In this document: positions 40,880 through 43,624 of the stretch, piece by piece
How the letters are laid out: every line of letters starts with the position of its first letter
Numbering within the stretch: position 1 is the stretch's first letter
DNA from: Streptomyces sp. ITFR-16
GTDB lineage: Bacteria; Actinomycetota; Actinomycetes; Streptomycetales; Streptomycetaceae
NCBI RefSeq assembly: GCF_031844705.1
Contig: NZ_CP134609.1
Coordinates: forward strand, 3,162,001-3,226,000
DNA length: 64,000 nucleotides
Direction: 5' to 3'
Translations under genes and position numbers: made by a program
Notes under the pieces: model-generated
The model's input: the letters and a program-made list of their open reading frames with translations, nothing else
What the model was told of the DNA's origin: nothing
The model's database searches: none

Positions 40880-41440
40880 GTGGCAAGGGGCAGCTCGGGA
40901 ATCGTGGCCGCGCTCACCGCGGCGGCCCTCGCCGCGGTCGGCTTCCTGGCCTACCAGGCGTCGGCGAACGCCCCTGACCGCCTCGGCGCCAAGCCGAAGG
41001 CGTCCAGCAGCGCGCCCGCGACGGGCGGCCACGCCAAGCCGAAGCCGAAGAAGGACCCTCTCGCCGTCCCCGCCGCGTCCGGCCACGGCATGCGCGTCGT
41101 GTACGCGCTGGGCGACCGCCGGGTGTGGCTGGTCGACGCCAAGGGCAAGTCCACCCGGACCTTCAAGGTCATGCCGAGCGCGGTCCACGCCCTGCCGGGC
41201 ACCTATCAGGTGACCTCGCGCTCCGGAAAGGTGACGGGCTCGGACGGGGTGCCGATCGAGCACGTGGTGCGGTTCGCGACGACGAACGACGTGGCGATCG
41301 GCTTCAGCGCGGCCCAGGACGGCTCACTGGAGAGCCCGGACCCGACCCTGAAGGCGGGCGGCGTCCGCATGAGCCGCGAGGACGGCAACGCGATCTGGAC
41401 GTTCGCCACGGTGGGCGTCAAGGTCGTCGTGGTCCCGTAG
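40880..41440 (+). CDS. YkuD (L,D-transpeptidase)-like protein without catalytic Cys and His
   Basis: 186-aa exported protein: membrane anchor or signal (VAALTAAALAAVGFLAYQAS, residues 7-26), a Lys/Pro linker, then a YkuD-like fold (VVYALGDRRVWLVDAKGKSTRTFKV, LPGTYQVTSRSG). The usual catalytic end SHGC-[VI]-R-[ML] reads KAGGVRMSREDGNAIW here, and the upstream HG motif reads IGFSA. Both catalytic residues are missing, while the surrounding sequence is well kept, so a binding or structural role at the wall is more likely than transpeptidation. The ATG at 40880 is preceded by AAAGAGGCACGC. Confidence 0.82.
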   Translation: MARGSSGIVAALTAAALAAVGFLAYQASANAPDRLGAKPKASSSAPATGGHAKPKPKKDPLAVPAASGHGMRVVYALGDRRVWLVDAKGKSTRTFKVMPSAVHALPGTYQVTSRSGKVTGSDGVPIEHVVRFATTNDVAIGFSAAQDGSLESPDPTLKAGGVRMSREDGNAIWTFATVGVKVVVVP

Positions 41441-41549: not shown

Positions 41550-41705
41550 TCAACCCCGCTTCTGCGCCGACCCCTCACGCGGCGCAGGCGCCGCAACGCG
41601 CCGGGGCGGGGTGGAGACCGCACTCGCCGCCGCCCCCGCGGCCAGCAGCTCCCGCATCGTCACGGCCGCCGGCGACGGCCGCACTTCTCGCTCGGATGTC
41701 GGCAT
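41550..41705 (-). CDS. Probable 51-aa peptide gene under an iron box
   Basis: Short reading frame with MPTSEREVRPSPAAVTM at the start and a helix-forming core MRELLAAGAAASAVSTPPRR (residues 17-36), then a Pro/Arg tail. Two points support it: the ideal ribosome site AGGAGG 5 nt before the ATG, and an inverted repeat resembling the DmdR/IdeR iron box 33 bp further upstream, placed where a promoter would be. No signal peptide or lipobox and no Cys. I do not recognise the product. It could be an iron-regulated small protein or leader peptide. It lies between the YkuD-like gene and tsaE. Confidence 0.6.
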   Translation of the reverse strand: MPTSEREVRPSPAAVTMRELLAAGAAASAVSTPPRRVAAPAPREGSAQKRG

Positions 41706-41737
41706 GGACGCCTCCTGAGGCTCCGGTGGAAGGCATA

Positions 41738-41753
41738 GTTAGGTAGACCTAAC
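41738..41753. promoter_or_regulatory. Iron-box-like operator (DmdR/IdeR/DtxR type)
   Basis: GTTAGGT (41738-41744) AG ACCTAAC (41747-41753) is a perfect inverted repeat. On the minus strand the 19-bp window matches the actinobacterial iron-box consensus at 13 of 19 positions by my count. It is AT-rich, suiting a -10 region, and is 33 bp from a start codon with a strong ribosome site. Confidence 0.7.
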
Positions 41754-41832
41754 CGGCTCTCGTCCTCCATGTCACCACGCTTGCCCCGCCCCGCGCAACA
41801 TTTTGCCGACACCGCGTCGGAAACAGGCTCCC

Positions 41833-42396
41833 TCAGACCCCCGTCGCGTCCCAGGGCGCCCACGAGTCCGACCGCAGCCCCGCCCAGCGGGCGCCCACGC
41901 CCACCAGCGTCACCGTGCGCCGCTCGTCGTCCGTGTCGCCGACCGCACGGTCGATCAGCACCTGGAGCCGGTCGTCCGACAGCTCCTCGACCTTGCCGTC
42001 GCCCCACTCGACGACGACCACCGACTCCGGCAGCGACACATCGAGGTCCAGGTCCTCCATCTCGTCGAGCCCGCCGCCCAGTCGGTAGGCGTCGACATGG
42101 ACCAGCGCCGGTCCGCCGGAGAGCGAGGGGTGGACGCGGGCGATCACGAACGTGGGCGAGGTGACCGCGCCCCGGACCCCGAGGCCCTCGCCGAGGCCCC
42201 GGGTCAGGGTCGTCTTCCCGGCCCCCAGCTCGCCGGTGAGCATCACGAGGTCCCCGGGGCGCAGCACGGAGGCGATCCGGCGGCCCAGGGCCTGCATCTG
42301 TTCGGGGGACTCGACGGCCAGGGCGACGGTGACGGTGCCGGGCGCGGCCTCGTACGCGGCGGGCTCAGCCGCCGGGCTGTTGTGCGGTGCTTCCAT
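41833..42396 (-). CDS. tsaE: t6A biosynthesis ATPase TsaE
   Basis: 187-aa P-loop protein that drives the TsaB-TsaD cycle. The Walker A motif is LTGELGAGKTTLTRGL (about residues 53-68); the family segments SPTFVIARVH and ALVHVDAYRLGG follow. ATG 42396 gives 187 aa and overlaps the end of the preceding hydrolase gene by 32 bp, hence translation coupling. Confidence 0.94.
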   Translation of the reverse strand: MEAPHNSPAAEPAAYEAAPGTVTVALAVESPEQMQALGRRIASVLRPGDLVMLTGELGAGKTTLTRGLGEGLGVRGAVTSPTFVIARVHPSLSGGPALVHVDAYRLGGGLDEMEDLDLDVSLPESVVVVEWGDGKVEELSDDRLQVLIDRAVGDTDDERRTVTLVGVGARWAGLRSDSWAPWDATGV

Positions 42397-43624
42397 GCCC
42401 GCCAACGTTAGAGGACTCCGGTACGGCTCCGGCCCGCACCAGCAGGTCCGCGAGCCGGTCGGTCACGGTCTCCGGGTGCTCCAGCATCACCAGATGGCCG
42501 GCGTCCGGGACGATGACCAGTTCCGCGTCCGGCAGCTGGTCCGCGATGGCCTCGCTGTGCGAGCTGGGGGTCACCAGGTCCTTGTCACCGGCCAGGATCA
42601 GCACCGGGACATCGCGGAACAGGGGCAGGGCCGCGCTCTTGTCGTGCTCGGCGAAGGCCGGGTAGAACTCCGCGACCACATCGATCGGTGTGGACTCGAT
42701 GAGCCGCTCCGCGAACCGCTCGACCGCCGGGTCCACGTCCCGCGAGCCGAACGAGTACCGCTTGATCAGCCCGGCGAAGAGGTCCGCGGTCGCCCGCCTG
42801 CCCCGCTCCACCAGCTCCGCCTGCGAGCCGAGCGCCTTCAGCACCCCGGGCAGCACCCGGCGCACCGCGTTCACCCCGGCCACCGGCAGCCCGAAGCTGA
42901 CCTCGTTGAGCTTCCCGCTCGACGTGCCGACGAGCGCGACCGCGGCGACCCGGTCGCGGATCAGCTCGGGGTAGCGGTCGGCGAGCGCCATGATCGTCAT
43001 GCCGCCCATGGAGTGCCCGACCAGCACGAGCGGGCCCTCGGGCGCCGCCGCGTCGATCACGGCCTTGAGGTCGCGGCCCAGCTGGTCGATGCCGACCGGC
43101 ACCCCGCCCCCGGCGCGCGCCTGGGCCCGGCCGCGCTCGGAGCGGCCGTGGCTGCGCTGGTCCCAGTGGACGGTGCGCACGATGCCGCGCAGGGCGGCCC
43201 GCTGGAAGTGCCAGGAGTCCTGGCTGAGGCAGTAGCCATGGCTGAAGACGACGGTCACCGGGGCCGGGGCCTTGCGCCCGAAGAGCCGGCGCCGGCGGGG
43301 ACCGGAGGCGGCGCCGGCGGCCGTACCGCCCGTCCCGGTGCCGCTGCCGGGATCGACCTCGTCGACCTCGTAGTACAGCTCGGTGCCGTCGTCGGCGGTG
43401 GCCCGGCCGGGCAGCCCGCGCAGCGAGCCGTACGGTCCGGTGGCGTCCAGCGCCAGCCGGGCCCGCTTGCGCATGCCCCGGCCGACCGTCAGCCGCTCCA
43501 CCGCGACCCCGGCGGCCGCGCCCGCGGCGATCACGCCTATGGCGGCGCCGGCGATGCCCGCCCGGCGCCAGCCGGCCGCCGAAGCGGCCGCCGCCACCGA
43601 CTCACCTGCGCTGATCTCGCTCAC
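42365..43624 (-). CDS. Alpha/beta hydrolase with N-terminal membrane anchor
   Basis: 419 aa. An N-terminal hydrophobic stretch (GIAGAAIGVIAAGAAAGVAVERL, about residues 23-45) may anchor it. The alpha/beta-hydrolase core has HGYCLSQDSW (oxyanion region), the nucleophile GHSMGG near 202-207 and a catalytic His in PDAGHLVMLEHPE. The function is unknown; the gene is conserved between alr and tsaE in Streptomyces. GTG 43624 is the start. Confidence 0.88.
   Translation of the reverse strand: MSEISAGESVAAAASAAGWRRAGIAGAAIGVIAAGAAAGVAVERLTVGRGMRKRARLALDATGPYGSLRGLPGRATADDGTELYYEVDEVDPGSGTGTGGTAAGAASGPRRRRLFGRKAPAPVTVVFSHGYCLSQDSWHFQRAALRGIVRTVHWDQRSHGRSERGRAQARAGGGVPVGIDQLGRDLKAVIDAAAPEGPLVLVGHSMGGMTIMALADRYPELIRDRVAAVALVGTSSGKLNEVSFGLPVAGVNAVRRVLPGVLKALGSQAELVERGRRATADLFAGLIKRYSFGSRDVDPAVERFAERLIESTPIDVVAEFYPAFAEHDKSAALPLFRDVPVLILAGDKDLVTPSSHSEAIADQLPDAELVIVPDAGHLVMLEHPETVTDRLADLLVRAGAVPESSNVGGHGSTAQQPGG

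Follow-up and report, generated by a model that had tools for sequence, protein, structure and literature searches.

Within a 64,000-nucleotide stretch of the Streptomyces sp. ITFR-16 genome (hereafter the window), a 51-codon open reading frame (ORF) beside tsaE is, judged by its sequence, a real coding gene of a small-protein family that is spread through the genus and not peculiar to this strain. Its promoter carries a 14-bp half iron box together with a second dyad, CCGAC-N5-GTCGG, which is also found at the heme oxygenase gene hmuO. The explanation that we favour, and hold to be fairly probable, is that the gene would be repressed by iron via DmdR1/IdeR and co-controlled with hmuO through a putative regulator binding the dyad, and that it would encode a small soluble protein. 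This protein is probably made in iron shortage, where it would help the cell to manage heme and iron. The features concerned are listed here in window coordinates.

41550–41705, minus strand: gene of the 51-aa small protein with core VTMRELLAAGAAASAVSTPPR (ORF listing, ATG start)
41711–41716, minus strand: AGGAGG ribosome binding site, 5 nt ahead of the ATG (read directly in the sequence)
41738–41753, strandless: GTTAGGTAGACCTAAC, a half iron box: 14-bp IdeR/DmdR1-type site for one dimer, flanked by a matching G and C (perfect palindrome)
41767–41778, minus strand: conserved block GTGGTGACATGG, in the family consensus GTGGTCACATGG, that may be the −10 region
41794–41798, minus strand: TTGCG, putative −35, beginning 22 nt downstream of the start of the dyad (same offset in most family promoters)
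41803–41823, strandless: second dyad TTnCCGACN5GTCGGnAA, common to the hmuO promoter (0 mismatches)
41833–42405, minus strand: tsaE, upstream neighbour, stop at 41833 (Pfam TsaE, E=1e-32)
40880–41440, plus strand: convergent 186-aa ORF, downstream neighbour (ORF listing)

The original prediction had described a short minus-strand ORF of 51 aa near tsaE, whose ATG is preceded at 5 nt by AGGAGG and, further upstream, by a perfect inverted repeat. When the sequence was reread, the ORF, the ribosome site, the repeat and the neighbouring tsaE were all found in place, while the distance from the ATG to the near end of the repeat was corrected from 33 bp to 32 nt. The ORF sits in the gap between the tsaE stop and the convergent 186-aa ORF, for which no Pfam match was obtained and whose N-terminus looks, by eye, like that of a secreted protein. 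The AGGAGG site was also seen in the homologue sequences inspected. The surroundings are also kept: in 30 family loci (the window's own and 29 others), tblastn puts tsaE next to the small gene in 29 and a relative of the 186-aa ORF in all 30.

The spread of the family was followed with a profile of 27 members (E<=0.01). This profile finds the family in 178 of 181 genomes of the genus and, across the order, in 180 of 197; the one genome from another genus of the same taxonomic family has a match, and among 15 genomes of other taxonomic families there is one weak match (E=0.0018). Searching with the 51-aa protein as a single sequence gave matches in 142 of 150 genus genomes at E<=0.1, a threshold at which many of the weaker matches are possibly due to chance. 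In named genomes the family is present at no fewer than 80 loci, and 76 among the matches listed belong to Streptomyces. That these ORFs are translated is supported by the substitution pattern in a 19-codon core, compared over 114 distinct DNA sequences that represent 119 of the 121 distinct members. In frame, pN is 0.122 and pS 0.479, giving a ratio of 0.26 in which pN is somewhat lowered through the choice of loci by protein likeness and of cores by residue pattern; the other two frames of the same core give ratios of 2.0 and 3.2. With a pS of 0.48, synonymous change in the core is free.

Eleven residues (in the numbering of the window's protein, M1, M17, L20, L21, A22, A26, A27, S31, T32, P33 and P34) are invariant in the 27 members, and the length of the family proteins ranges from 50 to 86 aa. 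AlphaFold, run on an alignment of 60 rows, places one helix at residues 17–30 with low confidence elsewhere (mean pLDDT 60). The product is predicted to be a soluble protein in which 19 conserved residues make a short helix that STPP terminates, with disordered tails on both sides. Position 8 of the core is Cys in 77, Gly in 36 and Ser in one of the 114 distinct cores, dividing the family into an ALLA-SC type and an AAG type; the window's own protein has Gly. Since the core holds no invariant His, Cys or Tyr, the family in general is unlikely to have a role with metal or heme, though the Cys-type members alone may have one. None of the 27 members matched a Pfam or NCBIfam family above the curated cut-off, the best scores being CwsA in Pfam (E 0.011 in three members, below cut-off) and E 7.6 in NCBIfam (one member). 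A PDB profile search with the small protein returned nothing usable, and plasmid records contained no match to it.

Turning to the promoter, the palindrome has to be seen against the architecture of the iron box, in which the 19-bp element is made up of two overlapping copies of a 14-bp unit. In the part of the source available, TTAGGNNNNCCTAA is proposed as the 14-bp consensus of IdeR, and on a designed half site the Saccharopolyspora IdeR binds as a single dimer with an apparent KD of 78 nM (PMC8464063). The window's site is equal to this one-dimer consensus and can therefore be called a half iron box. The claim of an iron-box-like site thus stands and extends across the genus, whereas a full 19-bp iron box is not what the site turned out to be: a search of its own genome for the 19-bp box with <=3 mismatches does not pick up the small-gene locus, and the promoter box of the DmdR1/IdeR regulon found at this gene is the 14-bp half box at 41738–41753. 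Conservation was counted over 121 distinct members, obtained from 140 loci after 7 without a usable ORF row and 12 duplicates had been dropped. Exact TTAGGN4CCTAA lies within 90 bp before the start in 113 of them, so that the homologues with a conserved iron box on which the original prediction depended do exist. Six of the eight exceptions have a one-base variant, and in the other two (L098 and L142) the start codon had been picked too far upstream. It is this count that carries the conservation of the box, since the promoters were anchored on the box pattern and the invariance of its letters is partly built in.

Across the 8.12-Mb genome, TTAGGYNNRCCTAA occurs at nine places and a reversed control pattern at none. 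Six of the nine overlap 19-bp iron box matches with <=3 mismatches, and some of these six, as read by eye, adjoin siderophore and iron genes. The remaining three are isolated half boxes, namely that of the small gene, one at G000:C1:720637 (L037) and that of the heme oxygenase promoter (L041). At L037 the isolated half box, TTAGGCATACCTAA, is directly upstream of a possible gene starting VPKENVRLGTVQETLLIPLYG, which is methyltransferase-like by eye; the ORFs there have no visible iron role.

The half box is one part of a promoter plan with a fixed order across the family, in which TTCCGACAAGnCGTCGGCAA..TTGCG is followed by GTGGTCACATGG, then by the box and then by the ribosome site. CCGAC-N5-GTCGG is present in 117 of 119 family promoters. 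Both it and GTGGTCACATG were matched in 102 promoters, and in 99 of these the latter lies 42 nt from the start of the dyad; TTGCG begins 22 nt after that start in 105 of the 117. By eye, the putative −10 of the small gene is poor and the box lies downstream of it, while at hmuO the box falls between −35 and −10.

Heme oxygenase (PF01126) was found in 59 of 61 Streptomyces genomes, including that of the window, where hmuO (L041, G000:C1:5827747 region) matches at E=2.1e-69. The promoter of this hmuO has two tandem CCGAC-N5-GTCGG dyads, then TTGAC and the isolated half box. The best-scoring 30 hmuO loci all have the dyad, and 25 of them an exact half box; a near box can be seen by eye in four more, and L205 has none. 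In 25 of these 30 promoters TTGAC stands at the 22-nt offset that TTGCG has in the family. Most of them have one exact dyad and four have two. The window in turn displays what marks the hmuO promoters, with a dyad of 0 mismatches, TTGC at the family offset and a half box. The expectation of an iron-controlled small gene for a peptide or regulator is partly supported by the conserved box and by the half box common to hmuO; it had included neither the second dyad nor a link to heme oxygenase, and said nothing of the half-site nature of the box or of the Ala-Ala tail that most relatives have.

In its strict form the dyad is, within the genus, specific to these two genes. In the window's own genome, TTnCCGACN5GTCGGnAA occurs without mismatch at three places, one at the small gene and two at hmuO, and the two dyads with one mismatch are both inside ORFs. 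At two mismatches the pattern is found 24 times and its reversed control 15 times, for which reason weak sites cannot be judged. A related, earlier pattern found just the two promoters in this genome at no mismatch, with one match of its control at <=1 mismatch. The strict dyad, TTNCCGACANNNNGTCGGNAA, was located at 77 distinct places in 54 of 61 Streptomyces genomes, with no match of the reversed control in any genome, and every one of the 77 is at hmuO (61) or at the small gene (16). These 16 consist of 15 sites (G019 included) and that of G033, whose small gene has a slightly different core. Thirteen further members of the genus added 11 strict sites, 10 at hmuO and one at the small gene. 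The strict pattern catches only 16 small-gene sites because many of them have G instead of T three bases before CCGAC; since it would miss such variants, other targets of the dyad may exist.

Outside the genus, a class-wide scan found the strict dyad in four of 181 genomes (reversed control, 0). Three of the four sites lie in a gene read as yidC and one between TetR-type and ABC permease genes; about one chance match is expected by a hand estimate, and for this reason no regulator is named from them. In the last case (L231, 1501–1521) the dyad is, by eye, directly upstream of the gene for an FtsX-like ABC permease, with the TetR-type gene adjoining. We take this arrangement to recall the heme exporter HrtBA with HrtR, a likeness that may be due to chance.

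The two genes do not always occur together. G013 and G298 have the small gene and lack a PF01126 hmuO, with G013 retaining both dyad and box, and G176 and G247 have hmuO and no match to the small-gene profile. Both genes are missing from G243 and, by the weaker single-sequence search, from G045. Thus, with exceptions both ways among 13 chosen genomes, the link in presence is weak and the small gene and hmuO are not strictly tied, which suggests that the small protein may serve a wider purpose than HmuO alone.

Several other explanations of these data were considered. It is conceivable, if unlikely, that the gene and its co-regulation are real, with the palindrome recognised not by DmdR1/IdeR but by a different DtxR-type protein, such as a manganese sensor. 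The site is a 14-bp half site only, usually with its flanking G and C conserved and sometimes inside a longer palindrome, and manganese-dependent regulators of the DtxR family are described, in the part of the source available, as more divergent from IdeR (PMC8464063). However, the site is identical with the 14-bp IdeR consensus of the same source, the same half box recurs in the promoters of hmuO, an iron/heme gene, and two thirds of such sites in the genome (six of nine) overlap 19-bp iron boxes. An effect of the transcript itself, either as a regulatory RNA or through a 3' end antisense to the convergent 186-aa gene, with the peptide incidental, would fit a gene so short and convergent to a close neighbour. 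Selection nevertheless acts at the protein level (pN/pS 0.26), leaving synonymous sites free to vary, and most members keep the core and an Ala-Ala end even though their length varies, so that we regard this as very unlikely.

That CCGAC-N5-GTCGG should be the transcription terminator of the upstream gene, and no regulator site, is also highly improbable. Its arms neither drift nor covary, being exact in 117 of 119 family promoters and in all of the best-scoring 30 hmuO promoters, four of which have two exact copies. Two unrelated loci have the same dyad, each time 22 nt from the −35, and no strict site was found at any other gene in 61 genomes. These observations outweigh the ability of the dyad to form a stem and its place immediately behind the preceding gene, tsaE here and, by eye, MetAP at hmuO. 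As for a chance ORF with a chance palindrome, the GC-rich window holds 24 perfect 7+2+7 palindromes and the palindrome alone is nothing special; what raises it above chance is its conservation upstream of the family members. With ORF, box and dyad conserved genus-wide, this reading is already refuted at the sequence level, and its probability is close to nil.

We therefore return to a gene controlled by iron through DmdR1/IdeR and, together with hmuO, through the dyad. When iron is sufficient, Fe(II)-loaded DmdR1, the IdeR orthologue, would occupy the half box as one dimer and block the promoter, and it would leave as iron falls. Such repression is suggested by the identity of the site with the one-dimer consensus of IdeR and by the place of the hmuO homologue SCO2267, which, in the part of the source available, belongs to a run of 11 genes with three predicted DmdR1 sites (PMC12161575). 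A putative second regulator would bind CCGAC-N5-GTCGG. The dyad is just upstream of the −35, is doubled in some hmuO promoters and is accompanied by −10 elements that by eye are poor, all of which points to an activator as its most likely binder. This regulator, possibly responsive to heme or redox state, would act on the small gene and hmuO, the only genes in the genus at which strict dyads were found.

Three regulators described at hmuO promoters or in heme sensing were compared with the dyad. In C. glutamicum, the hmuO promoter has sites for the repressor DtxR and the heme-activated activator HrrA 3 bp apart (PMC12327846), so that in the part of the source available the design is like that of the Streptomyces hmuO, with a DtxR site beside the site of a second regulator. 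The HrrA motif CMAMCDAAAGKTKGA (PMC12327846) nevertheless differs by eye from the Streptomyces dyad, which moreover marks the small protein gene as well, and HrrA was set aside. SAV4189, of the MarR family, binds the S. avermitilis hmuO promoter in vitro, and its motif, given as TTGCCYKHRSCAA in the available text (PMC6036246), differs by eye from TTnCCGACN5GTCGGnAA. The same is true of SenR, part of a system that senses iron and haem stress (PMC3754957), with the motif CGGGCCGCGTCCCG in the text available (PMC4991794). Both were likewise set aside as dyad binders.

The C-terminus offers a hint as to the fate of the protein. Ala-Ala ends 116 of the 121 distinct family members, compared with 0 of 327 ORFs from the family loci, a background that is not independent since a few genes and their orthologues make up most of these ORFs. 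Within the window, 0 of 45 ORFs end in Ala-Ala, about 2% being expected from its Ala content. An Ala-Ala tail is a proven ClpXP degron on sigma-AntA, 67 of whose 71 orthologues carry it (PMC7142297, in the part available), and by analogy the small protein may be turned over by Clp through this end. The likeness to sigma-AntA is limited to the tail, the small protein being no sigma factor. The window's own protein ends in KRG in place of the di-alanine of a ClpXP substrate; it and four further distinct members without Ala-Ala make clear that the degron is not universal. The closest relative of the window's protein, L008, ends in KRAA where the latter has KRG (41550–41560).

With regard to its action, the small protein would most likely be a short-lived, ClpXP-tuned regulator or adaptor that binds a partner through the core helix. 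It could thereby tune a target that uses heme or iron at the time when HmuO is recovering the iron of heme. Metal-repressed small proteins are known from other bacteria: FbpB of Bacillus and MntS of E. coli are made on metal shortage and adjust metal use. Unlike these, the gene described here would answer to a different repressor and has a second control site, and in profile searches of Pfam and NCBIfam its family members match no such family. Compared with the DmdR1/IdeR regulon of Streptomyces, a regulon of the DtxR family, the small gene fits in having a 14-bp TTAGGNNNNCCTAA site and a promoter designed like that of hmuO, and is unusual in that it has a half box only and a product of no known family.

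The neighbours of the small gene are, we assume, SCO4747 and SCO4748. In the open-access literature searched, SCO4747 is mentioned in one paper and SCO4748 in none, and in the part available the main text of PMC12161575, which scanned −350 to +50 of gene starts, mentions no SCO474x gene. The new DmdR1 targets given there are SCO2114, SCO2275 and SCO5998, and the small-gene locus is not among them (PMC12161575, in the part available). Title, abstract start and term counts in the open-access literature likewise revealed no paper that describes the small gene.

A bolder proposal, which we offer tentatively and think rather doubtful, is that the dyad defines a two-gene heme-iron regulon. It would consist of hmuO and the small gene, whose product, a Clp adaptor or inhibitor with a short life, would switch off some target that makes or uses heme when iron is low. 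This would amount to a protein-based iron-sparing device of actinomycetes. To our knowledge, the balance of heme breakdown, heme synthesis and iron in Streptomyces is little worked out. Here, what was a 51-codon ORF in a gap is now one member of a small-protein family that spans the genus and has heme oxygenase, a gene of known function, as its partner. At the same time, a second control site of the Streptomyces heme oxygenase has been exposed, read by a putative regulator. The dyad and the small gene provide direct handles for finding the sensor and a possible iron-sparing factor, and half iron boxes upstream of short ORFs merit inclusion in iron-regulon searches, which otherwise begin from annotated genes.
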